Assembly: GCF_002906655.1 (NCBI RefSeq)
Contig: NZ_CP025794.1
Span: forward strand, 868,001 to 932,000
DNA length: 64,000 nt
Reading direction: 5' to 3'
Origin: Vibrio hyugaensis
Lineage (GTDB): Bacteria; Pseudomonadota; Gammaproteobacteria; Enterobacterales; Vibrionaceae
A model generated the notes under the pieces. It was not told the DNA's origin, made no database searches, and saw only the letters and a program-made list of their open reading frames with translations. Positions within the stretch are counted from its first letter, which is position 1; each line of letters starts with the position of its first letter. Below, piece by piece: positions 3,270 through 53,498 of the stretch. Both the position numbers and the translations under genes were made by a program.

Positions 3270-4706
3270 CTATACCAGATTTAATCTGTTCCAACTCTTA
3301 AACAAGTATTTAGAAGCTAATATTTGTCTTATTTGAGCCATATTGAACCCCATTTTTTGTAAATAACTCATTACTAGAGCTATCTTCTTGATGTTTTGAG
3401 CTGCGGCAGCTAACCAACACTGCATTTGCACTTTGCTTAGCCCACGGAAGCGGGCATAACGGTGCCCATGGTGCTGCTTAGCATCAGCGAAGCTTCTTTC
3501 TACCGTCTCACTTCTTCGTCTATACGTCTTCTTCCCATAGGGAGAGAGCCGCATTTGGTTCGCTCTCTCCACTGCATCTGTATAGATGTGTCTGGTGATG
3601 ACTTTCTTCATGTTTTTACTTTGAGTACAGTCATTTCGCATTGGGCAGAGCACGCATTCTTTCGGGTCTGAGTGATACTCTCTATAAGCATCTCGTGACG
3701 TCGTTTTGTAGATAAGCGTTTGCCCATTTGGACATCGATAACTGTCACTCTCTTTGTGGTAGATAAAGTGCTTCTTCTTGAACGTGTTCTTTGTTCTTGA
3801 TGGCCTACGGTAGCCGAACACACCTAAGATATTTCGGCGCTCTAATGACTCTGCCACGGGAGCGGTAAAATAGCCGGCATCGAGACCAACAGCTATAGGG
3901 TTAAGGTTGAACTGCTCTAGCGTGTAGTCCAGTCGTTCAATATAGGGTTGAGAGTCATTGATATTACCTGCCGTCGCATGAGTGTCGACGATGATCCCAT
4001 GCAGACCATCGACGGTACGATGGTCAAGGTAGAAGAAGCCTTGTGGTTTATTGTCTCTCGTCATAAAACCACTTTCTGGGTCTGTAGTACTGACTTTCGT
4101 ATTCTTTGTTTTAGGCTCGGATACTCGTGCCTTAAGCGACTTCTTTCCTTCTCGTTCTCGGTCTAATGCAACGTCTTCATCAAGCATGTCGAGGTAAGCA
4201 CTGGCTCGAACGTCTCTGACCTCATTGGTGTGTTTATTTTTGTTAGCGTTTGCTTTGAGGTGAGTGCTGTCGGTAAAGAGTTGCTGCCCAGCGACCAAGC
4301 CTTTGGCCATAGCCTGCTCAACGATGTTGATAAAGATACGTTCGAATACGTCGGTATTATTGAAGCGGCGAATACGGTTTTGGCTCAGTGTTGAAGCATG
4401 GATAACCTTCTCCGTTAACGACATGCGCAAGAACCAACGATAGGCTACATTGACTTCAATCTCTTTAACGAGCTGTCGCTCGCTTTTGATTCCGAAGAGG
4501 TAGCCAATAAAAATGATTTTGAAAAGTCGAACAGGGTCAACAGGTGGTCGACCGTTATCTTGACAATAGAGGTGAGCGACTTGGTCCCGGATAAATTCGA
4601 AGTCTATGGCTTTATCAATTTTGCGGACTAAATGGTCTTTAGGAACTAACTGCTCCATCGTCACCATTTCAAATTCGTATTGTTGAGGAGAAGGATCTTG
4701 TAGCAT
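3270..4706 (-). CDS. IS1182-family transposase
   Basis: 478 residues. The N-terminal third matches the DUF772-type region (LVRKIDKAIDFEFIRDQ, then PPVDPVRLFKIIFIGYLFGI). The DDE catalytic core follows: FTDSTHLKANANK supplies the first acidic residue, VGLDAGYFTA the second, and the ETVERSFADAKQHHGH region the glutamate. A cysteine cluster (CVLCPMRNDC) lies between, as in other members. No interruption is seen, so the element may be active. It is the only gene of the element. Confidence 0.93.
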   Translation of the reverse strand: MLQDPSPQQYEFEMVTMEQLVPKDHLVRKIDKAIDFEFIRDQVAHLYCQDNGRPPVDPVRLFKIIFIGYLFGIKSERQLVKEIEVNVAYRWFLRMSLTEKVIHASTLSQNRIRRFNNTDVFERIFINIVEQAMAKGLVAGQQLFTDSTHLKANANKNKHTNEVRDVRASAYLDMLDEDVALDREREGKKSLKARVSEPKTKNTKVSTTDPESGFMTRDNKPQGFFYLDHRTVDGLHGIIVDTHATAGNINDSQPYIERLDYTLEQFNLNPIAVGLDAGYFTAPVAESLERRNILGVFGYRRPSRTKNTFKKKHFIYHKESDSYRCPNGQTLIYKTTSRDAYREYHSDPKECVLCPMRNDCTQSKNMKKVITRHIYTDAVERANQMRLSPYGKKTYRRRSETVERSFADAKQHHGHRYARFRGLSKVQMQCWLAAAAQNIKKIALVMSYLQKMGFNMAQIRQILASKYLFKSWNRLNLV

Positions 4707-7467: not shown

Positions 7468-8506
7468 CGTAGAAAAGGTCGTCTTTTGTTGGACGTGCAG
7501 CAACGCGCTCTACGACGCGATCCAGCAACTCGTTTTCTTCGATTTCATCAGGTTTTTGAGACACCTCTTGGCTGTTGATGCCGAGCTTGTTAAACAGCAT
7601 CATGTCCTTGTCTTCAGAAGGGTTTGGCGTGGTCAGAAGTTTGCAGCCATAGAAGACGGAGTTTGCACCAGCCATAAAGCACAGCGCTTGCATCTGCTCG
7701 TTCATATCTTCACGGCCAGCCGATAAACGAACCGCAGACATAGGCATCATAATGCGGGCAATTGCTATCAAACGAATAAAGTCAAAGGGCTCAACGTCAT
7801 CCACTTCTTCCAGTGGTGTGCCCTTCACCTTCACGAGCATGTTGATTGGCACGCTTTCCGGATGTGTTGGTAAGTTAGCCAGTTCCACAAACAAACCTGC
7901 TCGGTCATTGGCACTTTCGCCCATGCCGATAATGCCACCAGAACAGATCTTCATTCCGGCATCACGTACGTGAGACAGGGTATCTAAACGGTCTTGGTAA
8001 GTACGTGTGGTAATGATGTTGCCGTAAAACTCAGGTGAGGTATCAAGGTTGTGGTTATAGTAATCCAGACCAGCGGTTGCCAGTTGCTTAGCTTGATCTG
8101 GCGTTAACATTCCAAGCGTCATACACGTTTCTAGACCCATGCCCTTCACACCTTTGATCATGTCGGTCAAATGCGGCATGTCACGCTCTTTCGGGTTTTT
8201 CCATGCTGCGCCCATACAAAATCGGGTTGAGCCAGCGTTTTTCGCTTTTTGTGCAGCATCGAGTACACGTTCAACTTCCATCAGACGCTCTTTTTCGATG
8301 TCTGTGGTGTAACGAGCACTCTGAGGACAGTACTTACAATCTTCTGGACAAGCACCTGTCTTAATCGACAGAAGCGTGCTTACTTGAACATGGTTGGTTT
8401 GTTGATATTGACGATGTACAAGCTGCGCTTCGAATAGGAGATCCATGAATGGTTTTTCCATGAGATCGCGCACTTCAGCATGCGTCCAGTTATGACGAAC
8501 TTCCAC
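7454..8506 (-). CDS. bioB: Biotin synthase BioB
   Basis: Radical-SAM enzyme inserting sulfur into dethiobiotin. 350 residues. The radical-SAM cysteines are in [10 protein letters not shown] (CxxxCxxC), and the [2Fe-2S] ligands include the cysteines of [16 protein letters not shown] and KICSGG. The start is a GTG at 8506 (VEVRHNW), supported by a ribosome-binding site AAAGGA six bases upstream and by family length; the ATG six codons further upstream lacks such a site. First gene of bioBFCD, transcribed away from bioA. Confidence 0.95.
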
Positions 8507-8530
8507 GTGTATTCCTTTAGTCACTTTTGT

Positions 8531-8577
8531 TGTTGTGTTGACAGTCTACTGAGTCTCGATAAACTGTCAACACAACA
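8531..8577. promoter_or_regulatory. BirA operator and face-to-face bio promoters
   Basis: A perfect 15-bp inverted repeat (TGTTGTGTTGACAGT at 8531-8545 and its complement at 8563-8577) separated by 17 bases. Each arm holds a TTGACA -35 hexamer, and the opposite arm holds the matching -10-like hexamer (TAAACT for bioA, TAGACT for bioB; 16-base spacers). The converging geometry is that of the E. coli bio operator, where BirA bound to biotinoyl-AMP blocks both promoters. BirA binding is inferred. Confidence 0.9.
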
Positions 8578-8636
8578 CAAAAGAACAAAGTTTACATCTG
8601 TTTATTTTTTAATCTCAATTATTATTGGAATCGCAC

Positions 8637-9917
8637 ATGGATCTCGCCTTCGACCGCCAGCATATCTGGCATCCTTACACTTCGACATTGACACCTCTGA
8701 CCTGCTACCCAGTAGAATCCGCAAATGGTGTTCACATTAAATTGGAAGACGGTACAGAGCTTGTCGATGGCATGTCTTCTTGGTGGTCGACGATCCACGG
8801 CTATAACCATCCGCACTTAAATCAAGCCGCTCACCAGCAGATCGATCGGGTCTCTCACGTGATGTTTGGCGGGATTACCCACCAGCCAGCAATCAGTTTG
8901 TGTAAGAAGTTGCTATCCCTCGCACCAAGTAACCTTGAACATGTATTCCTTGCCGACTCAGGCTCTGTTGCTGTAGAAGTCAGCTTGAAAATGGCGCTGC
9001 AATATTGGCATGCGAAGGGCGAACGCAGACCAAAGTTTCTTACTTTGCGACACGGTTATCACGGCGACACTTTCGCGGCAATGTCGGTTACCGACCCAGA
9101 TAACTCGATGCACTCCCTCTATAAAGGCTTTTTACCTGAGCATATCTTTGCGGAGTCACCAACTTGTGGATACTGGGACGAATGGAAGCCAGAAGATCTT
9201 GCTGACTTTGAGCACAAGATTGAGACGCACCATCAAGAACTCGCTGCGGTGATTCTAGAGCCTATCGTTCAAGGCGCCGGCGGCATGCGTATCTACCATC
9301 CAGAATTTCTCAAAGGCGTGCGTAGGCTTTGTGACAAATACGGCTTGTTATTGATTGCAGATGAGATCGCAACCGGATTTGGGCGCACAGGCAAATTGTT
9401 TGCCTGCGAACATGCAGATATTCAACCAGACATTCTGTGTGTCGGGAAAGCACTCACTGGCGGCTACATGACGCTATCAGCGACCCTAGCCAGCAAACAC
9501 GTCGCAGACACCGTTTGTGGCGGTGATGCTGGGTGTTTTATGCACGGTCCAACCTTTATGGGGAATCCACTCGCTTGTGCTGTAGCTACTGCAAGTTTGG
9601 AATTGATCGAACAAGGTGATTGGAAGCAGCAAACCCAACAAATCGAAACACTGTTTTCTGAATTACTGCCAAAACTTGAAGAATACGAGTTGGTGAAGAA
9701 CACCCGTTGGTTAGGTGCAATTGGTGTTGTAGAAACGCATCGCCCAGTGAATATGGAAACCATCCAAGCCTTGTTTGTTGAACACGGAGTTTGGATTCGT
9801 CCATTTGGCAAACTGATTTATATGATGCCGCCGTTCATCAGCAAGCCGGAAGATATTGAGAAGCTAGTTAATGCGATTGATGCTGCTTTGCAACGTAAAG
9901 ACTGCTTCGCTTCATAG
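8637..9917 (+). CDS. bioA: Adenosylmethionine-8-amino-7-oxononanoate aminotransferase BioA
   Basis: Transfers the amino group of SAM to KAPA, giving DAPA. 426 residues, class III aminotransferase. Visible: IWHPYTS at the N-terminus, DGMSSWWSTIHGYNHP, the RHGYHGDTFAAMS segment, LLIADEIATGFGRTG with the PLP aspartate, and the lysine in VGKALTGGYM. The ATG at 8637 follows a TGGAA ribosome-binding site and gives the normal start (MDLAFDRQHIWHP); an in-frame TTG at 8625 is unnecessary. Single-gene unit with its own terminator. Confidence 0.95.
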   Translation: MDLAFDRQHIWHPYTSTLTPLTCYPVESANGVHIKLEDGTELVDGMSSWWSTIHGYNHPHLNQAAHQQIDRVSHVMFGGITHQPAISLCKKLLSLAPSNLEHVFLADSGSVAVEVSLKMALQYWHAKGERRPKFLTLRHGYHGDTFAAMSVTDPDNSMHSLYKGFLPEHIFAESPTCGYWDEWKPEDLADFEHKIETHHQELAAVILEPIVQGAGGMRIYHPEFLKGVRRLCDKYGLLLIADEIATGFGRTGKLFACEHADIQPDILCVGKALTGGYMTLSATLASKHVADTVCGGDAGCFMHGPTFMGNPLACAVATASLELIEQGDWKQQTQQIETLFSELLPKLEEYELVKNTRWLGAIGVVETHRPVNMETIQALFVEHGVWIRPFGKLIYMMPPFISKPEDIEKLVNAIDAALQRKDCFAS

Positions 9918-11734: not shown

Positions 11735-11769
11735 TGTCTCTTGATCACAAGTCTAGTGATCAAGAGACA
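11735..11769. repeat. 14-bp perfect hairpin at the left end of the IS50-like element
   Basis: TGTCTCTTGATCAC, seven-base loop, then its complement. One arm is the terminal repeat; the other lies in the transposase 3' coding sequence, and the stop codon falls in the loop. Confidence 0.85.
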
Positions 11770-13132
11770 TTGCGAGTTCGTAGCCTTCAAGGATGGTTTG
11801 TAGTTTAAACCATCCTTCCCAAAGCACCTTTATTGAAGCTCTACCCGTCCTCTTGGTATCTTTCCAACCGCCTAATTTAGCGAGATTTTTGTACGCCCAG
11901 CCCATATCGGGCACTTCTTTAGGTAACGTCTTACTTTCTAGTTTCAACCACAGTAGCTTCCAAGCTTTTTTGCCCAATACCTTTTCACAACTTTCTTTCG
12001 TTAGCTCATCAACTTCTTTAATGAAGCGTAACGCCAATAAACGCGTAGCAACAAAGGCATAGATGACACTTAATCTCTCTAAGTTATCTTTACTTTGTAG
12101 CCTGAGTGACTCCACATCTGTCCCTTCACTTTTCCAGACTTTATGAAAATCTTCAATCAGCCATCTGCGCTCGTAATAACCGATAATTCTCATAGCGTCT
12201 TCAACGTTGTTTATTGGCTCCGACGTCAAGAGGTGCCATGCTAACTTGTCTTTTGATGTCCCTTGCTCAAGGCAACCAACATAATAAACAGGTATGCCTG
12301 CGTGCTCTTTTTTGTTTGCCGGAGCCTTTAATGTCACCTGACCATATTTAACATCAAGCTTTACATCTCTCGCTTTTCTCCCTCCTTTTTGGGGGATGGT
12401 AAGCTCTTTTGTCTCGACGCTTGGTAACGCTTGCGCATAGTCGTAAAGCTTTTGAGCGTGCTCTTCTAGACAACGACTTTGCATTGAACGAACGACAAAA
12501 CGCTGCTGATGTTGACGTTTATAAGTTAAGTATTCGAATAGGTCAGCTTCTCGGTCACAGACCGAGATAACATCTAACATTTTATCCCCTAGGCGTTCAA
12601 CGACACGGCGAGAAGCTTGCTCCCATTTGTAACTCTCTTTCTCCTTATAAGGACGAGTCGCGTGTTGGTGCTTTTGCCCACGCTTAGTAATATCTCGGCT
12701 CCATCGTTGCTGCTCTATCAGGCCAACAATGGTCTGACTTTGTGGTGCAAAAAGTAACGTCGAATGTACGTGGAGAGCTCGAATTCTATCGCCTTGATTC
12801 GTGTGCCCGAGTTCATCTTTTATACTTCGATGCGGAAAACTGAGCGTTGTTGTATCTTCAAGCGCGAGTAATTCCTCATGCTCGTTAGCTCGGGATACAG
12901 TTGATTGAAAGCCTGCTTCTGCGATGTCTTTTGCATCGATGTTTTCATTGCGGATAAAGCGATATGCACCTTCCATATCGGCGGGAGAAAAAGGAAGTTT
13001 AGCCACGGAGACTCCTGGTTGATTAGCAATGGAAGTCGCTAAACTGATGAGGCGTTGTGTTCTTCGAGGGTCTTTAAGTTGTGCTTGTCCAAATTGTTCT
13101 TGTGCCCAAAGTTTAGCGTCTGAGTGTGTCAT
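11753..13132 (-). CDS. IS4-family transposase, IS50/Tn5-like
   Basis: 459 residues, close to the 476 of Tn5 transposase. The N-terminal DNA-binding region (WAQEQFGQAQLKDPRRTQRLISLA) is followed by the DDE core: LLALEDTTTLSF gives the first aspartate, VISVCDREADLFEYL the second, and YERRWLIEDFHKVWKSEGT the YREK-like glutamate region. C-terminal helices for dimerisation follow. No disruption is seen. The last five codons (MSLDH) are encoded by a reverse copy of the terminal repeat. Confidence 0.93.
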   Translation of the reverse strand: MTHSDAKLWAQEQFGQAQLKDPRRTQRLISLATSIANQPGVSVAKLPFSPADMEGAYRFIRNENIDAKDIAEAGFQSTVSRANEHEELLALEDTTTLSFPHRSIKDELGHTNQGDRIRALHVHSTLLFAPQSQTIVGLIEQQRWSRDITKRGQKHQHATRPYKEKESYKWEQASRRVVERLGDKMLDVISVCDREADLFEYLTYKRQHQQRFVVRSMQSRCLEEHAQKLYDYAQALPSVETKELTIPQKGGRKARDVKLDVKYGQVTLKAPANKKEHAGIPVYYVGCLEQGTSKDKLAWHLLTSEPINNVEDAMRIIGYYERRWLIEDFHKVWKSEGTDVESLRLQSKDNLERLSVIYAFVATRLLALRFIKEVDELTKESCEKVLGKKAWKLLWLKLESKTLPKEVPDMGWAYKNLAKLGGWKDTKRTGRASIKVLWEGWFKLQTILEGYELAMSLDH

Positions 13133-34109: not shown

Positions 34110-36560
34110 TTAGTGGAAATACACCAGCATCTCGACGTCATCCCCTTGCTGAACAGCATTCAATGAGAAGTGTACGTAGCCTTCATCTGTCACTGGGATT
34201 TGCAGGTATTCATTGCTGCCCCAGTAGTTTGATGCGTACTCGTGTTGCTCTGCGGTTGGCCAATAACTACGGCTTGCGTATAAATCAACATTGCCACTGT
34301 CTGCATCGCTATTTTTATCCGTTAGCCACACTCGCACTTCTTGCACACCCTGAGGAACATAAACCGCCGCATAGCGTTGTTGATGCACCGTTAAGGTTTT
34401 GGCCTGACCCGACTCTAACACCACAGGCGTTAAGTCATCTTGCTCTTGCGTTGGCGGCGTTGGTGTTTCAGTCTCTAAAGAAGCAACGAGGGTCACTGCG
34501 CTAAAGTCCGTTCGACCAGCGATGCTGATGTAGTAACGGCCCGCCTTAATATAACCCGATTGCTCCGGCTCAAACGTCACAAATTCATTGCTGCCATCGC
34601 CATATTGGCTGAACTCAAAATCGTAGTAATGCGCTTCTTTCTCAAAGCTCATGTACAAATCCGCATCGCCCTGGCTATCGCCGTGAATCGTAACTTCAAA
34701 GTGGGTACTGTTCTCAGGTACATCAACATAGAACAACTGCTCACTGTAAGCCGCACCACTTAACACCACACTTTGATTTGCTGCGAGTTGCGTTACTTGA
34801 TCAGAAGGCTCTGTCGGCTCACCCGGATTTGGTTCTGGGTTTGGATCAGGCAGCTGTGGTTCGCTAGAGACAGAATCTAACCAACGCTCAAACTCGCCAT
34901 TGTATTGCTCACCCAATAATTGAACTTGTTTTGCCCACTCAGCAAACTGACCAGAGCGAGAAAGCGCCAGTAAGCTATCCACTTCTTGCGGATGCTCTTC
35001 CAACATAAAGCGTACCGCTAAGTAGCCCCAACGATAAACGCGATTGGTATCATGAGAGTAAGTGGTCGCCAACACATCGGATAGGCTCATTTTACCATCG
35101 GCAATCAAACCAATCGCTGCGTCGTAACCTTGCTTGTAATGCATGTACTCAGCAAAGCCCTCTAACCACCACACAATGTAACCATGCGCCAAGTTATCGC
35201 TAAAAGAACCATATTGGTTGAATCGTGCATCAAGGTAATGGGTGTATTCATGCTCCAAGTTGAGAATGGATAACTCGTCACCATTAGCGTAACGGTAAGC
35301 CACAAAGCGCGCCACGTTGCCTGCTTGTGCAGGATTTCCTTCAAGATACTGACCGCCGTTGTCCGTGGTGTTGCCAAACAAGAAAGACGAGTAATCCACG
35401 TAGCTGCTTTTGTTGGCAAACACCGCCACTTCTACTCGCTCATTGTTGTCGTCTGCCACTGGTTGTTGACCAGTATTCGCCACTTGGTGGAAGTCCGTCT
35501 CTTTCGCTGCCAGCACATCACACGCTCCAATCGCTTGTGCTTCAGTCAAGTCTTGGGAACGGATAATCGCTGGGCCTTGGCACTCGTAACGGTTCGGTAG
35601 CACTCGCGCCGCTAAATCACGCTTCGCTTGGTCTAAATCCAGACCATTCAAACCTTCTGGTGCGAAGTAGCTCATCATCTCAACTGCCGCTAGCCAAAGT
35701 TTGTCGTGTTCGCTACCAAGTGGATTTTGATCCATCACTTGTTGCATAGCTATCAATGCTTTTTGTTTTGTCGCTTTATCTGGACTTGCCAATAAACGAC
35801 CCGTTTCACGCACTGCGTTATAAACCAAGAAACTTGCGTCCGTATCTAACGCCCAAGCATTATCACGGGCGAATGTCACTAATGTATCGATGTGTTGAGT
35901 ATGGCTTGCCATATAGCGGTAAAAATCATCTCTCGCCGCATGCCCTGCCATTGCTCGGAACAAGTTATTTAACCCATCTACCCACTGAGTATCCTTCGCG
36001 GTTTCAAGGTTGAAATGACCCAGCGCCGCGAGTTGGGCCTCCATCGTGAGCGGCAGTTGCTTCACGTTATCAACCATCAAGGTTAGGCTTTTCATTGCGT
36101 CCACTTGTTCGCGACCTTGGTCTAAGGCGTGTGGATTGGCTAAAAACGCATTAATCGACTGGGCAAAACGTTGGCTCAACGCGTCAGAAAAGTTCGGCGC
36201 TTGCGCGTTATAACGAACGTAATAAGCGGCGCGGACAAACTCACCCAGATTTTCGAGTTTACGTGCTTGTTCAGCTTTACCTCTATAGCGTGTAATTTCT
36301 TGATTCAATGCAATTTGGATACGGCTTAAGCTCACTTCGCTGTAGATATCGTTTAACGAATCGGCAGGTGCAGAGAACCAAGAACCGTAACAATTGTAAT
36401 CCGCTGCAGAAACCGCAGAAGCGAGATCAGCTACTTGCTGAAGATCGTTAACATCACATTGTTCTTGAGCAAATGAAAAACAGGACACACTGGCGAGCAT
36501 GCATGCAAGCGCCAAGCGATGACGCGGGAATAGACGGGTATGAGACATAACAACACTCAT
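34110..36560 (-). CDS. Secreted collagenase, peptidase family M9
   Basis: 816 residues. Signal peptide ends near residue 31 (CFSFAQE). The M9N activator region covers about 40-330 and the catalytic domain follows, with the zinc motif [11 protein letters not shown] and, about 25 residues on, [11 protein letters not shown] supplying the glutamate ligand. After a proline-rich linker ([16 protein letters not shown]) there are two beta-sandwich PPC-type domains (about 580-690 and 705-816) that help bind collagen. Size matches Vibrio collagenases of about 814 residues. ATG 36548 (MSHTRLF) is an equally possible start. Exported enzyme, useful for invading or feeding on animal tissue. Confidence 0.93.
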
Positions 36561-37068
36561 TAATTAGTTATATATTTGAGGGCGCTGTTATATTCCTTAC
36601 AACAAACAAGGTGAATTGAGTTGCATAGGATTTATGAAGTTAGTTCAGAAATTAGATATTTAACTCTAATTTATAAAGACAAAACCAACATATTCATTTG
36701 CTCGTAAGTCATCAAAACGGTTAACAAACACACTAGGGCATCCCAAGAGCCAATCCGACTTTAACTGTCTTTGTCACAAATTGGTCCGCTTTTTTATCTA
36801 GTTTCCTTTAGTTAACTACATTATCTTTTAGAATATCATGCTGTATAGAATGTGACTCTACATTTCTAACGTCCGAATTTATACCTATATAGCTAGTTTG
36901 ACATTGTGTATTTCATTACTTTTCTTATGTATAAGATTATAATGTTATGGTAGGCTTTAATGAACATACGTTAATATTATAAACAGCCTACCTTTATTTG
37001 TAATCATCTCTTTTAGATAATTACAATCATATGATATAAAAGTATTCTCACTATGTTAATTTTAAGAT
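36561..37068. other. AT-rich gene-free border of the defence segment
   Basis: 508 bases of about 30% GC by eye with no supported gene. It separates the normal-composition collagenase gene from the equally AT-rich Kiwa genes and looks like the edge of transferred DNA. No integrase, tRNA or att repeat seen. Confidence 0.55.
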
Positions 37069-38019
37069 TTAAACTCTATCTTTCACTTTTGCATGATAGT
37101 TTTGTCTAGTCAACTCAGAAATAAGGAACTCTTCATCTAGTAACTTTAGAAAGTTATCACATCTAACTAGACTATTTAAGTCAAACTTACTCCCATCCTC
37201 ACTAAATTTCAATTTATCTTTAAATACAGGATGCTTCAATGCATAGTCAATTAGTTTTTCATTAGAAATATTATTTTCTACAACTGCTGAACCATTAAAT
37301 ATTTTCACAAACTTTCTAGCAAACCTTATATCATTTTCAAGTTTACTTTCAAACTTATTACAACATTCAACTAAAGACATTGATTTTAGTTCGACAACAT
37401 ACTCTTTAGCTTTGCTTTTTAATATCTTATCAAAAGCAAAATCTTTCTCAAATTTAGTGGCGTCCTTTACTAAATAATAATCTTTTACTCTAGCAAAGAT
37501 AAAGTTCTCGTTTAATCGAATAACATCTTCACTAATTGGTACAATTCTATTACCACTAAAAGTTACCATTAGCCGTGACTTATGTTTAAACAGATTGACA
37601 GGCTGAATTAAATTGTAAAAGCTCATAGTTTCACCATTACTACTTTTAAGCCTTACAATAACCGCATGCACATCACTCAGACCTGAGTGCTTTACGGGGT
37701 ATGCCTCAAGAGTTTTGTTCGCTGGTAAAGTATGCGCAGTATCAATTGCATCTAGCTCAGCTAATCTATCGTCAAAGTCATAGAAATACAGGGCGTTGGG
37801 TCTTCCATCATTCTGAGATAACGGTAAACATTCAAACCCCAAATTATCAGCAAACGTTTCTTTTATCGATGATACATACTTTTGCTTATACTCATGTAAC
37901 GCAGTATTATCAATATCAGAATCGAAAACATTATTGAATTTATCTAAGAAGAAAACTTTAATACCAATACAATTATCTACAACCGTCTTTATATCGTTCT
38001 TAACATCGTTTTTATTCAT
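37069..38019 (-). CDS. kwaB: Kiwa anti-phage protein KwaB (DUF4868)
   Basis: 316 residues, the size of the E. coli KwaB (about 315). The DUF4868 pattern is visible: a long N-terminal region with ALYFYDFDDRLAELDAI, then SGLSDVHAVIVRLKSSNGETMSFYNLIQPVN and LMVTFSGNRIVPISEDVIRLNENFIFARVKDYYLVKDATKFEK across the middle, and a helical C-terminal half. Soluble; known to act with membrane protein KwaA to stop phage replication. ATG 38019 overlaps the kwaA stop as ATGA; the longer in-frame start at 38043 is unlikely. Strong AT bias compared with neighbours. Confidence 0.88.
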   Translation of the reverse strand: MNKNDVKNDIKTVVDNCIGIKVFFLDKFNNVFDSDIDNTALHEYKQKYVSSIKETFADNLGFECLPLSQNDGRPNALYFYDFDDRLAELDAIDTAHTLPANKTLEAYPVKHSGLSDVHAVIVRLKSSNGETMSFYNLIQPVNLFKHKSRLMVTFSGNRIVPISEDVIRLNENFIFARVKDYYLVKDATKFEKDFAFDKILKSKAKEYVVELKSMSLVECCNKFESKLENDIRFARKFVKIFNGSAVVENNISNEKLIDYALKHPVFKDKLKFSEDGSKFDLNSLVRCDNFLKLLDEEFLISELTRQNYHAKVKDRV

Positions 38020-38597
38020 AACTTTATATCTCGCGCAAAACATACAGAATTTGAAAGGAACTTATAACTAACATTATCACCAATCTTTATTTCATTTTTT
38101 GTAATTATTAATATTGATTGATAGAAAGCATTACTATCAGACAGATCAGTTTTATACAGTTTATAACCAAATATAGCTAAAGTCGGGTTTGCATAATACT
38201 TCTCTGTTCTTACAAAGATAACCCCTATAACTAATATTAGGATTAGATATGCAATCACTTTGTTTAAGCTATCAAAACTCATCCCAGCAAATGGCACAAT
38301 ATACGTAGCTAAAAAAGTAAGACTTTCATAATCCTCTCCCTCACAACGCATAACTTTTAATGTATCTTCGCCACCACCTTTTAAATAATATTTAAATTGC
38401 CTACGTAAATACTCACAATAAATTATCTGAATTATTGAAAACAAGAATAAAAAATCTTCAGATTTTACTTTTTTGAAGTCAAAATCATTCAATAAAAGAA
38501 TAAAATCAAGCCTAAAAGTTAGGACTGCAACAATCACAAACAGAAAGTAAAGAGAGAGTAAATACAACTGTGATTGCTCTCTAGTCCCCAGTTTCAT
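38016..38597 (-). CDS. kwaA: Kiwa anti-phage membrane protein KwaA
   Basis: 193 residues with four hydrophobic segments: about 10-36 (LYLLSLYFLFVIVAVLTF), 47-64, 92-110 and 113-131 (VIAYLILILVIGVIF). A four-helix membrane protein immediately before a DUF4868 gene, with ATGA overlap, is the defining layout of Kiwa. The C-terminal 60 residues are soluble and end FLSNSVCFARDIKL. Ribosome-binding site AGGAAAA. The stop of the SRA-HNH gene is 33 bases upstream. Confidence 0.83.
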   Translation of the reverse strand: MKLGTREQSQLYLLSLYFLFVIVAVLTFRLDFILLLNDFDFKKVKSEDFLFLFSIIQIIYCEYLRRQFKYYLKGGGEDTLKVMRCEGEDYESLTFLATYIVPFAGMSFDSLNKVIAYLILILVIGVIFVRTEKYYANPTLAIFGYKLYKTDLSDSNAFYQSILIITKNEIKIGDNVSYKFLSNSVCFARDIKL

Positions 38598-38630
38598 TTT
38601 TATTTTCCTGACTAAAATCGTTCATAATTA

Positions 38631-39485
38631 TCACTTAAAATAATGTTCACGATGATACTGGAGAAACGCCTGTTCAATCTTGTGCTTTTTGTTCAGCGTT
38701 AACTGTTCGTCTAGGCCAATCAAACTGAAATCATCCGCGATTGAGAACACACCGTTATCAAACATCACGTGATGGTTTGGACATAAGCACAGGATATTTT
38801 CGACCACATCAGGGCCGCGATGCGGTTCACCCAACGGTTGAATGTGTGCAGCTTCTGCGTAGTGCCCTGCTCCAGTATCAATGGCTAAACCGCATACTTG
38901 GCATTGATATTGATGCCAGTCTTTTACCTGCTTTGCCTTGTTGTAATCTCGGACGATCTTGTTGACCGTAACGGCTTGGCGGGACGTTACCTCATAACGT
39001 GCTTTGGTTGTGTCTTGCACCTCTGCCGCAGGTTCCGAATCAATTTGGACAAGTTTGTAGCGCCATACTTTGAAGCCAGAAAGTCCTCGCTCGCACCAAT
39101 AGTCTTCAACGCGGTATAAACCCGCGTATTGATAACCTTTGACTGGAGAGTAATGGCTTTGGTGTTTATGGCTTCGAGTAACGCGAACAGGTAAGCCCTC
39201 TAGCTTGTTTCTAGCCAGAGCGAGGTTGGTGCGTTCTAATTTTTGATCGGCAATTTGTTTATTGCTGTTTTCGTCACGGCCACCTGCTCCGGTATAGATG
39301 ATGACGTTGCCAAAATCTTCGTCGTCTTCATAACCACCGGAAAGCACGATTGAGTCAGCGCCTTCTTTAGCGCCGCCACTGATACCAGCCTGCGTTGGGG
39401 GATGAATGCCAGATTTGGCTAACGCGGCTCGATTTTCGAACATGTCACCGACCTCAGTATCGGGTATGTGTCCAAAAACTCTCAT
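38631..39485 (-). CDS. SRA-HNH modification-dependent restriction endonuclease (type IV)
   Basis: 284 residues. Residues 1-150 are an SRA/YDG domain, which flips out 5-methyl- or 5-hydroxymethylcytosine: VFGHIPDTEVGDMFENRAAL, GADSIVLSGGYEDDED, VIIYTGAGGRD, and a YQYAGLYRVEDYW segment. Residues 195-243 are an HNH nuclease: CQVCG, AAHIQPLGEPHRGPD, and NILCLCPNHHVMFD with the catalytic HH. The order SRA then HNH matches TagI-type enzymes. Predicted to cut phage or foreign DNA with modified cytosine. Unlike Kiwa downstream, base composition is normal for the genome. Confidence 0.88.
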   Translation of the reverse strand: MRVFGHIPDTEVGDMFENRAALAKSGIHPPTQAGISGGAKEGADSIVLSGGYEDDEDFGNVIIYTGAGGRDENSNKQIADQKLERTNLALARNKLEGLPVRVTRSHKHQSHYSPVKGYQYAGLYRVEDYWCERGLSGFKVWRYKLVQIDSEPAAEVQDTTKARYEVTSRQAVTVNKIVRDYNKAKQVKDWHQYQCQVCGLAIDTGAGHYAEAAHIQPLGEPHRGPDVVENILCLCPNHHVMFDNGVFSIADDFSLIGLDEQLTLNKKHKIEQAFLQYHREHYFK

Positions 39486-39825
39486 AGTAAACCCTTGTCT
39501 GTGTACTACTCAGCGGAAAAACGTGTCGAGAGGAGTGACGAATTTCCAACTGACACATGCACTAACGGTATCACATTCAATCAGGTTAATATGCGTGAAA
39601 CCTTCTCATTTTTCACAAGAAGTTTTTATGGTGACAATCGTTTATTTTCATATAGATAGCGAGCAGCATCGGGTAAACGACATGGTCAATTTTACATCTC
39701 AAACAAAACGAAGATCACAACTTATTATCAAAGTCCGACGTGCGGTTTTCTGTCATCCATATTTAACGTGCTAGTCATAATTATCAATAAGAATAATCAC
39801 GCTAATTCGACTTATGGACAGACAG
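39486..39825. other. Intergenic region between SRA-HNH and the sphingomyelinase
   Basis: 340 bases holding two divergent promoters. No supported gene; short frames here are not coding-like. Confidence 0.5.
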
Positions 39826-41154
39826 ATGAAATTGACACAATGGATTGTTGGGCTAAGTGGCTTACTCACATTACCAAGCCTTGCAGACACAGATGTATAC
39901 CTTACGAATAACTCAAACCAACCGTTAACTATTCAGGTAAAACATGAGGGCAGCGATTTACTGGAATACGGTGAAGAATGGCAACAACATGTGCAAGTGC
40001 TTGGTCCTTGGGAGACCAAATCAATCCTGAGCTTTAACCGTTGGGAAGGTGTAAAAACCGGCCAGAATTATCGCTTTGAGACGGTGGTTTCTAACCCGCG
40101 GGGTGAAAACATAACGTTAAACCAAGTGATGGAAGGCCATTGGTATAATTCAACGATTGAATATGGCTTGTCGGCTACGGACGTCAGCTTAGCGCTGAAA
40201 AACGATCGCAATATTCACCGTTCTAGCACCGATGCGTTTGGCACTCGCACTTCAGAACTGGCTTTTAAATCGGCCAGCACGGCTCGTTACGATGATTTGT
40301 ATTACACCATCACACCGAACAAGGTCGATGAAGTTGTCGATATCGATGAGCAAAACCTCAAATTGATGACTTATAACATTTGGGCGCTGCCTGCGATTGC
40401 TTCACACATTGGTGATCGTTACGAACTGATTCCTGATTACGTCAAAGGTTACGATGTGCTGGCACTACAAGAAGTGTTTGCCAGCGGCCGTGATGCGTTC
40501 TTGCGTGAACTTGCAAAAGAATACCCTTACCAGACTAAGATGCTGGATAAAGAGGGGTTCAACATTTACGACGGCGGCGTGATCATCGTTAGCCGTTACC
40601 CTATCGTCAATCAGGCGCAATATGTGTTCCCAGATTGTAGTGGTACCGACTGTTTTGCCGATAAAGGCGTGAACTATGCAGAGATAATTAAAGGTGGCCA
40701 AGCTTACCATGTGTTTGCAACGCATACAGCGTCTCTCGATACAGACACTTCGCGAGACTATCGTCAGCGTCAGTTCAAGCAAATACGCTCGATGGCTCAG
40801 TCTTTGAATATTCCAAGCGATGAAACCGTGATTTACAGCGGCGATTTTAACGTGAATAAGCTTAAGTTCCCGGGGGATTACCAACAGATGTTGGCAAACC
40901 TGAGCGCGATTGAACCACAATATTCGGGCTATACTGCATCAACGTTTGATCCTCGCATCAATAACTTTGCAGGAGAGGCTTTATCCGGCGGTGAAAATGT
41001 GGAATACCTAGATTACGTGATGGTGAGTAACGAGTACGGTTTGAAATCGTTCAATGACAACCGTGTTGATGTTCCTCGTTCAACGGCAGAGAGTTTGTGG
41101 AAGCACTTCAACCTGTCGGATCACTTCCCTGTTAGCGCTGTGATCAAGCCATGA
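39826..41154 (+). CDS. Secreted sphingomyelinase-like phosphodiesterase
   Basis: 442 residues from ATG 39826 (an ATG at 39814 is also possible). Signal peptide 1-20 (ending LPSLAD). An N-terminal beta-rich domain (about 22-170) precedes an endonuclease/exonuclease/phosphatase fold with sphingomyelinase landmarks: KLMTYNIWALP, DVLALQEVFASG (metal-binding Glu), ATHTASLDTD, YSGDFNVNKLKF, and the terminal SDHFPVSAVI with the catalytic Asp-His. Family enzymes cleave sphingomyelin to ceramide and phosphocholine and lyse host cells. Two cysteines (PDCSGTDCFAD) likely pair. Stop overlaps the next gene by four bases. Confidence 0.88.
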   Translation: MKLTQWIVGLSGLLTLPSLADTDVYLTNNSNQPLTIQVKHEGSDLLEYGEEWQQHVQVLGPWETKSILSFNRWEGVKTGQNYRFETVVSNPRGENITLNQVMEGHWYNSTIEYGLSATDVSLALKNDRNIHRSSTDAFGTRTSELAFKSASTARYDDLYYTITPNKVDEVVDIDEQNLKLMTYNIWALPAIASHIGDRYELIPDYVKGYDVLALQEVFASGRDAFLRELAKEYPYQTKMLDKEGFNIYDGGVIIVSRYPIVNQAQYVFPDCSGTDCFADKGVNYAEIIKGGQAYHVFATHTASLDTDTSRDYRQRQFKQIRSMAQSLNIPSDETVIYSGDFNVNKLKFPGDYQQMLANLSAIEPQYSGYTASTFDPRINNFAGEALSGGENVEYLDYVMVSNEYGLKSFNDNRVDVPRSTAESLWKHFNLSDHFPVSAVIKP

Positions 41155-51459: not shown

Positions 51460-53498
51460 ATGCTGCAATTTTCAAACAAAGAAATGGAGAACATTCGTCA
51501 TCGCGCGACGCCTTCTGTCATCAAAGCGCTTATTGAAGATAACCAAATTGTGCTTAATCACGAAGTCCTAGTTCCTGAAGACGGACGAGCGACTTGGAAC
51601 CTATTCTATTATTGCCCTGAGCATGGAGTGAGACTGACTTGGGATCGGAATAAGCCAACGTCTCATTGTTGCCCTGTTGATGGCAAAACGTTTACTGGTG
51701 AGCCGTACGACGGTGCATGGTGGCGCTGGTTGAATGGGTTAAACGCCAAGGCGTGTTATGACTTGGGACTGTTGTGGCATCTGACCAATGAAGACCGTTA
51801 TCTAAACAAAGTGAAACAAATACTGCTCCAGTATGCAAAATACTACCCAGACTACGAGGTACACGGCGGCATTCCTTACAATGGCCCTGGTAAAGCAAAC
51901 GCACAAACCTTGTGTGAGGCGAACTGTCACCTTGATTTCGCGAGAGGCTATGACTTCATCAAGCAAGCTCTAACGCTAGAACAGCAAGCCTATATCGAAC
52001 TGCGATTACTGCGAGAAGGTGCGGACTTTCTGGTGGAGCATCGCACCGCTCAGCTGCATAACCATGAGATGAAGATAAACGCGACCATCGGTGTGATTGG
52101 CCTTATTCTTGATGAACAACGTTATCTCGATTTCGCACTCAACACCGAATACGGACTGCACTATCAGCTAGAACACGGTTGTATCGGGGAAGGCATGTGG
52201 TTTGAAGGCTCGATCCACTATCACTACTACGCGTTACAAGCCTTGTTGAATTTCGAGAAAATGGCACATCAAACCCCGTACTCTGTCAGCTCGAATCCTA
52301 ACTACTTAAAGTTACTGAAATTCCCGCTACAGTTGGTAATGAACACCGGGGATTTCCCTCGTTTGAACGATTTATCGCAGGACAAGAAAAGCTCACTCAT
52401 GCTCACTTGTTTGAATTTGCCTACAAGCAAACACCGTGTGAAGAATTTGCTCGTGCCTTAGCCAGCATCTATCAAAACATCAGTCGCGATAACATCAATG
52501 CTTTGCTCTATGGCGTGGATGAACTTCCTCAAGTTAGTCCGTTACTCTGTCATTCAACACACAGCGAAGCCGCTGGCTTGAGCATTGCCCATCATCCAAC
52601 ATTGAATAATGCTCTGTTGTACAAGCACGCGCCGTATGGCGGTGAGCATGACCATTATGACCGACTCGGCTTTATCCTAACGCGTAATGGCAAAGAGATT
52701 TTGCCAGATTTAGGCACGACAGGTTATGGCGCAGAACTGCATTACGGCTATTACAAAAACACCGCAACACACAATACACTTGTGGTAAATCAGCAAAACC
52801 AGTCCCCAATCCACCCGCAATTACTTGGTTATACACAAACCGAGGATTACACCACCATTGATGCCGTTGTGGATTGGTCACAACCAGAAGCCAGTGTCGA
52901 TAGCCACACCATCGTGCAATGGGATAAAGAGGCGTATCAAGATGTTGTGTTCCGTCGTGCCTTCATTTGGCTTGATGATATCGCCATTGAACTTAACACG
53001 ATCCTCAACCCACACAACCAACAATTGGATCTGACTTATCACGTTCGAGGTGAACATCTTCTCCAACTAGAAAACGGGGCTTGGAAGCCAATTACGAACC
53101 CGTTATCCGGAGCATTAGCACAAATGACAAACACGCAATTGAGCGAGCCAAACACAGCATTCACTCTGCACTATGAAATCGAAGGACAAGCGGATTTCCG
53201 ACAAAGCATTTATACCGACTCCCCTGTTGAAGTACTCAGCGGTAATGCACCAGACAATCCGGCGACGTCCGATCTGGCTTACTCTTTGATTCGCTCTCAA
53301 CAAAATGCACTACGCACTCTTGTCGTGCACGAGCTTTCTGAAAGTACGACGTACCAAGTAGATGAGCTCGCCTGGGGAGAAAGCAGTATCTACTTCGTTT
53401 TATCAAGCATGAAAGGCGACGCACACATCAGTTGTACGCGAATGATGTACGATTTCAAATCCGCGAAGTTGTCCACATTTGAACGTCTTTCTAACTAG
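51460..53498 (+). pseudogene. Heparinase II/III-type (PL15-like) exo-lyase, broken by a one-base deletion
   Basis: Two overlapping frames (51460-52461 and 52371-53498) make one protein of about 679 residues if a T is restored in the TTT at 52371-52373 (GAT TTT ATC). The joined product reads FPRLND then FIAGQEKLTHAHLFEFAYK. Domains: an N-terminal insert with CPEHG and CPVDGKTF cysteine pairs, an alpha/alpha-barrel with HNHEMKINATIGVIGL and MWFEGSIHYHYYAL, and a C-terminal beta-sandwich with YGGEHDHYDRLGFILTRNGK. PL15 oligoalginate lyases have this plan. Either a real inactivation or a sequencing slip. RBS AGAGGGG before ATG. Confidence 0.82.

Follow-up and report, generated by a model that had tools for sequence, protein, structure and literature searches.

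Kiwa genes behind a TagI-like endonuclease gene in a variable chromosomal slot of Vibrio hyugaensis

Results

Organization of the locus

The window (the whole stretch of 64,000 nucleotides that was analysed, from V. hyugaensis contig NZ_CP025794.1) carried a gene for a TagI-like SRA-HNH endonuclease followed by the Kiwa genes kwaA and kwaB, in a chromosomal slot whose contents vary between related genomes and of which Kiwa is one. The preferred reading, with a probability of about 0.7, is that this slot is swappable, that Kiwa stands behind the SRA-HNH gene and is probably expressed from its promoter, and that the two defences would be additive. The parts are ordinary while the pairing looks recent and local, and the kwaAB segment most likely replaced other DNA behind the SRA-HNH gene.

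All three ORFs were intact on the minus strand in the order SRA-HNH, kwaA and kwaB, and their coordinates agreed with those given before from the sequence alone. A gap of 33 bases separated the end of the SRA-HNH gene (38631) from the start of kwaA (38597), and the stop codon of kwaA overlapped the likely ATG of kwaB (38019) by 4 bases (ATGA); the program-made ORF list puts the start of kwaB at an earlier ATG, 38043. The features of the locus were as follows, with positions of the window.

34110..36560, minus strand: flank, secreted collagenase-like peptidase (M9), used as synteny marker only (Pfam Peptidase_M9)
~36678..38633, no strand: segment without counterpart in V. jasicida and V. sinaloensis, kwaAB and ~390 bases past kwaB (blastn breakpoints, junction sequences, GC)
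37069..38019, minus strand: kwaB, Kiwa DNA-binding component, 316 aa (NF041623; PDB KwaB 9mrx)
38016..38597, minus strand: kwaA, Kiwa membrane component, 193 aa (NF041622; PDB KwaA 9mrg)
38598..38630, minus strand: gap of 33 bases between SRA-HNH and kwaA with a plausible kwaA ribosome-binding site, AGGA (sequence by eye)
38631..39485, minus strand: predicted SRA-HNH modification-dependent endonuclease gene, TagI-like, 284 aa (Pfam SAD_SRA and HNH_2; TagI 6ghs match)
39814..41154, plus strand: flank, Exo_endo_phos protein, divergent from SRA-HNH and presumably sphingomyelinase-like by name, used as synteny marker only (Pfam Exo_endo_phos)

About 80 bases past kwaB, an 8-base perfect inverted repeat was seen by eye at 36949-36992 as a possible transcript end. 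Read on the plus strand, a T-rich run comes after the repeat, which is absent from the output of the terminator scan.

SRA-HNH endonuclease

The SRA-HNH protein contained a SAD_SRA domain (2.4e-50, residues 4-149) and then an HNH_2 domain (1.1e-13, residues 195-249) in one chain, which is the domain order of TagI-type enzymes. TagI (6ghs) was the closest solved relative by sequence and matched near full length (E=7.4e-75). The residues named for TagI in PMC6212794 were mapped onto the protein, with the HNH part taken from an ungapped alignment. Pocket and thumb residues Q35, I38, Y55 and D58 of TagI corresponded to Q32, I35, Y52 and D55; Y67, T68, G69 and G71 to Y64, T65, G66 and G68; and the HNH catalytic set H229, N245, H254, D258 and N259 to H214, N230, H239, D243 and N244. 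In the alignment to TagI, the catalytic His-Asn-His, the metal Asp and the structural zinc pairs were all present, and the zinc ligands were C195, C198, C235 and H238. The protein differed from TagI at His33 of the thumb loop (Pro30 here), at His70 (Ala67 here) and in the second zinc pair, which is CxxD in TagI and CxxH (C235/H238) here, a variant that the accessible text of the TagI paper reports for other family members (PMC6212794).

By analogy with TagI, the enzyme is predicted to recognise 5mC or 5hmC and to cleave through its HNH domain, and the earlier proposal of an enzyme that cuts DNA with modified cytosine holds by homology, for both identity and predicted activity. The DNA of wild-type T4 is glucosylated. 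Since TagI did not cleave glucosylated 5hmC according to the available part of its description (PMC6212794), wild-type T4 would be the wrong phage to test the SRA-HNH enzyme.

The C5-cytosine methylase family (PF00145) had no match in the own genome at E 0.001, so the host's own DNA is not expected to offer 5mC to the SRA-HNH enzyme. Among 60 genomes, PF00145 was present in 2 of the 13 SRA-HNH carriers versus 23 of the 47 non-carriers (Fisher p 0.054 for all genomes, kinship ignored), and in Vibrio alone in 0/6 carriers (Fisher p 0.03, kinship ignored). The non-carriers were genomes G001-G050 minus the three SRA-HNH carriers among them; G017, with a partial SRA-HNH match (1.5e-25), was scored as a non-carrier and G574, with a match over the HNH part only, as a carrier. 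The scarcity of methylases among carriers fits a cutter of modified cytosine and proves nothing.

Kiwa genes

The two genes downstream were adjacent and each scored above its curated NCBIfam cut-off (KwaA NF041622, 165 bits with a cut-off of 100; KwaB NF041623, 249 bits with a cut-off of 200). The best PADLOC models gave 2.9e-57 for KwaA and 1.7e-69 for KwaB, and the solved Kiwa structures 9mrg (KwaA) and 9mrx (KwaB) gave 1.2e-40 and 3.9e-25. A crude hydropathy test found two strong segments in KwaA and none in KwaB, as expected for a membrane and a soluble protein. Both genes, their order, the NCBIfam scores and the matches to solved proteins were the same as in known Kiwa, and the earlier assignment to Kiwa, acting at the membrane early in infection, likewise stands on homology. 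Unlike known Kiwa, the pair lies 33 bases behind a restriction gene. In the available text on studied systems, the Kiwa proteins assemble at injection sites into a membrane lattice of KwaA tetramers and KwaB dimers. KwaB binds the DNA that enters but does not cut it (PMC12904381), and it blocks replication and late transcription (PMC12904381, PMC13190303).

The closest KwaB proteins outside the own cluster showed 71-74% identity, and one of them was named, that of Aliivibrio sp. EL58. The first 100 residues shown of KwaB from genome G524 (L093) were identical to those of Aliivibrio sp. EL58 KwaB. DNA homology of kwaAB to the Aliivibrio-type loci L093 and L094 was limited to 38590-37058, which begins 7 bases into kwaA and ends shortly past kwaB. 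In G524, kwaA was split into two frames (L093:2435-3012), and the near relative G516 (L094) had an intact kwaA.

The slot in related genomes

Both flanking genes of the window were also found in V. jasicida (L017) and V. sinaloensis AD048 (L018), where the SRA-HNH protein was 97% and 96% identical to that of the window and neither locus had Kiwa. These two were the only orthologous sites with SRA-HNH compared. The order in V. jasicida was SRA-HNH, a 117-aa GFA-family protein and the collagenase gene, in V. sinaloensis SRA-HNH, proteins of 297 aa and 157 aa, GFA and collagenase, and in the window SRA-HNH, kwaA, kwaB, about 500 bases and collagenase. The kwaAB segment thus occupies the place of the GFA-family gene of both relatives. 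No GFA remnant was found in the window, and the ~390 bases after kwaB matched none of the loci compared.

Homology of the window to V. jasicida (94.6%, blastn) ran to 38634, broke and resumed at ~36677. The three sequences diverged in the last SRA-HNH codon or directly after it, within a base of each other, with V. sinaloensis differing one base earlier than the split between the window and V. jasicida. The representative of the SRA-HNH 90% protein cluster had yet another tail. The GC content stepped sharply from 0.476 in SRA-HNH to 0.292 in kwaA and 0.311 in kwaB, with ~30% over the segment ~36678-38633. This GC content and the rarity of the pairing, read against two comparable sites, are what suggests that Kiwa was gained and not lost.

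In addition, identity at third codon positions between the window and V. jasicida was 0.866 in SRA-HNH versus 0.629 and 0.651 in the flanking genes, which points either to interspecies exchange of the SRA-HNH stretch after divergence of the flanks or to unusual constraint. In genome G030, the same flanks enclosed one chemotaxis-type gene (MCPsignal) and neither SRA-HNH nor GFA, which shows that SRA-HNH is not fixed at the slot. The G030 site, the V. jasicida site with only a GFA-family protein behind SRA-HNH and the high third-position identity, which probably reflects exchange of the SRA-HNH stretch between species, would all fit a generic variable spot whose contents are unrelated to SRA-HNH and where defence genes are nothing special. 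However, three different contents were seen directly behind SRA-HNH here, and two of them resemble defence pairs. Such a spot is a serious possibility at somewhat under even odds; it is compatible with most of the swappable-slot reading and differs from it only on why Kiwa is there.

The second of these defence-like contents is the V. sinaloensis pair (L018:8886-10249), a soluble protein of 297 aa and a membrane protein of 157 aa whose genes overlap by 4 bases. It is probably a RexAB/CarolAnn-like defence. In the RexAB, Sbash and CarolAnn prophage defences, a soluble DUF4747-type gene likewise overlaps a small membrane-protein gene; unlike these, the V. sinaloensis pair lies outside any recognised prophage. 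The DUF4747 label comes from precomputed results of a newer Pfam version, and the Pfam version used here gave no match. The 297-aa protein is widespread, with 571 relatives at E 1e-5, and the best PADLOC 2023 match of the pair (E 0.033) was not convincing.

Recurrence of the pairing

Adjacency alone calls for no chance model, as all genes have neighbours, and recurrence is what counts. Among 329 Vibrionaceae genomes, KwaB above cut-off was found in 13 (20 at E 0.001) and SRA-HNH at E 1e-30 in 13. Both parts occurred in one genome, the own, also when the 20 KwaB genomes were used, with 0.51 genomes expected if the two were independent. A sample of 148 relatives, which overlaps with the 329 genomes, had KwaB above cut-off in 8, SRA-HNH (E 1e-20) in 6 and both in 1. 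In the class-wide sample of 369 genomes, KwaB above cut-off was found in the own genome only (5/369 at E 0.001), as was SRA-HNH at E 1e-40. A species-wide collection of genomes contained 19 loci with SRA-HNH, in none of which a profile search found KwaA or KwaB, and among the Kiwa loci examined (most with 1,500 bases per side, four with more) SRA-HNH was present in the own locus only. The KwaB 90% cluster had 4 members or contigs, so up to three besides the own, and a few sister strains with the same KwaB cluster may share the pairing. The SRA-HNH 90% cluster had 236 members, which may be redundant, and the sizes of 236 and 4 fit the rarity of the pairing.

The sequence-only reading had proposed that the three genes form one joint defence unit and had named absence of the adjacency from all other genomes with either part as the outcome that speaks against it. 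The adjacency was absent in every genome set searched, and V. jasicida and V. sinaloensis have a near-same SRA-HNH without Kiwa; the joint unit was not supported. A functional unit, in which selection joined SRA-HNH and Kiwa for mutual help, for example with cut phage DNA feeding KwaB or with one layer for modified and another for plain phages, is quite improbable. It could draw on the shared strand and the 33-base gap, on the RexAB-resembling soluble and membrane pair at the same site in V. sinaloensis and on Marinomonas polaris, where the genes 70 bases behind SRA-HNH are a Septu-like candidate pair (PADLOC PDC-M01A/B). The accessible parts of the sources also give precedent for type IV restriction neighbouring another system (PMC8565348) and for restriction coordinated with later-acting immunity (PMC13373217). 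However, besides the lack of a second genome with both parts among the 329 Vibrionaceae and the 0/19 SRA-HNH loci with KwaA or KwaB, the next ORF downstream of SRA-HNH was convergent in 9 of these 19 loci (naive calls).

A wider proposal, that SRA-HNH genes of this subfamily stay in place at the head of modular defence operons and provide promoter and front-line cutter to exchangeable, complete two-gene second-layer systems, is doubtful. Exchange would proceed by recombination with the SRA-HNH gene and the flank downstream as anchors, and the cargo would be Kiwa here, the RexAB-like pair in V. sinaloensis (same boundary) and the Septu-like candidate pair in Marinomonas.

Complementary cover is already in print for BREX with type IV restriction on a plasmid, as far as the accessible text of PMC8565348 goes. 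As in that island, a modification-dependent enzyme stands here beside a system of other specificity; unlike it, the second system here is Kiwa, the locus is three chromosomal genes and no recurrence was found. None of the papers listed in a literature search, which covered mostly work outside subscription, pairs SRA-HNH with Kiwa in its title or the start of its abstract. KwaB is counted among the cargo of Tn7-like transposons in PMC8649781, in the available text of which the pairing with SRA-HNH is not named.

Transcription of the three genes

The layout, with one strand and a 33-base gap, makes a single SRA-HNH-kwaAB transcript plausible. In the other Vibrionaceae Kiwa loci above cut-off, the nearest upstream ORF (at least 60 aa, naive ORF calls) was at least 134 bases from kwaA in 11 of 12, a distance that usually leaves Kiwa space for its own promoter; the one locus with an ORF adjoining kwaA upstream was L001. 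Kiwa here has almost no upstream DNA of its own, so the SRA-HNH promoter most likely drives it. The sole promoter candidate upstream of SRA-HNH was a poor 9-of-12 match at 39637-39608.

Two unrelated transcription units that touch by chance, with a Kiwa promoter in the SRA-HNH 3' end or in the gap, are unlikely; the usual distance of Kiwa from upstream ORFs elsewhere would agree with them, and a promoter within the SRA-HNH 3' end could still drive Kiwa. However, the DNA upstream of kwaA is not common to its closest named relatives, and the low-power scan of the minus strand gave no promoter-like site in 38598-39470 and neither a promoter-like nor a terminator-like site in the 33-base gap. This silence means little, as the scan found 10 promoter-like sites versus a mean of 12.6 in shuffles.

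Proposed mechanism

In the swappable-slot reading, a TagI-like endonuclease gene would occupy a variable slot between a divergent secreted-protein gene and a collagenase gene, and a Kiwa pair, among named relatives most Aliivibrio-like, would have displaced what stood behind it. The junction would lie at the SRA-HNH stop codon, leaving almost no own DNA upstream of kwaA, and kwaAB would be transcribed from the SRA-HNH promoter. Going by the literature on relatives, SRA-HNH would flip 5mC or 5hmC into its SRA pocket and cut as an HNH dimer, KwaA would gather at phage injection sites and KwaB would bind the incoming DNA and block replication and late transcription. The two defences would act independently and additively.

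If this reading is true, the locus is a small natural experiment in the swapping of defence modules behind a restriction gene and in the way a newly arrived system comes by its promoter. A near-same SRA-HNH stands before each of the three alleles (no second system, RexAB-like and Kiwa), and their comparison could show whether the effects of stacked defences are additive, multiplicative or interdependent. If there was only a chance landing, this is one more Kiwa locus.

Candidate routes of insertion

Several routes of insertion were considered. Insertion by an integron, by a transposon or next to a tRNA was rejected: the window has no tRNA, a scan of 36000-40500 against Rfam gave nothing that reached the gathering scores, and none of the repeats found in 36500-38750 pairs both breakpoints. 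Inspection of the ORF lists by eye found no transposase at the breakpoints. Prophage origin was rejected as a search of 50,697 phage records with KwaB gave nothing at E 1e-5 and no close relative of KwaB turned up among viral contigs; SRA-HNH matched in part two records of a single archaeal virus, and L109 was its one locus on a viral contig. Plasmid origin was also rejected: of 72,556 records, two contained KwaB (E 1e-8) and one contained SRA-HNH (E 1e-20); in the incomplete gene table of the plasmid with SRA-HNH, no adjoining gene was named as defence. Homologous recombination is a guess at the route.

Other neighbourhoods and features of the window

A GFA-family protein behind SRA-HNH, as in V. 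jasicida and V. sinaloensis, was also seen in Marinomonas balearica (L022:8895-9251), 39 bases after SRA-HNH and with an Mrr-type gene upstream. The Marinomonas polaris locus in which SRA-HNH is followed by the Septu-like PDC-M01 pair (L020:4957-11249) had an integrase-like ORF and a toxin-antitoxin-like pair upstream (ORF list, by eye). In three Hymenobacter loci (L029, L031 and L035, ~8001-9430), a second, shorter SRA-type match lay directly behind SRA-HNH. Within the window, transposase-like ORFs were seen by eye at 3270-4706 and 11753-13132, far from SRA-HNH-kwaAB. Finally, two ORFs of 333 and 363 aa at 51460-53498, in different frames and with a 55-base overlap, resemble one gene split by a frameshift, which we take to be of alginate-lyase type.
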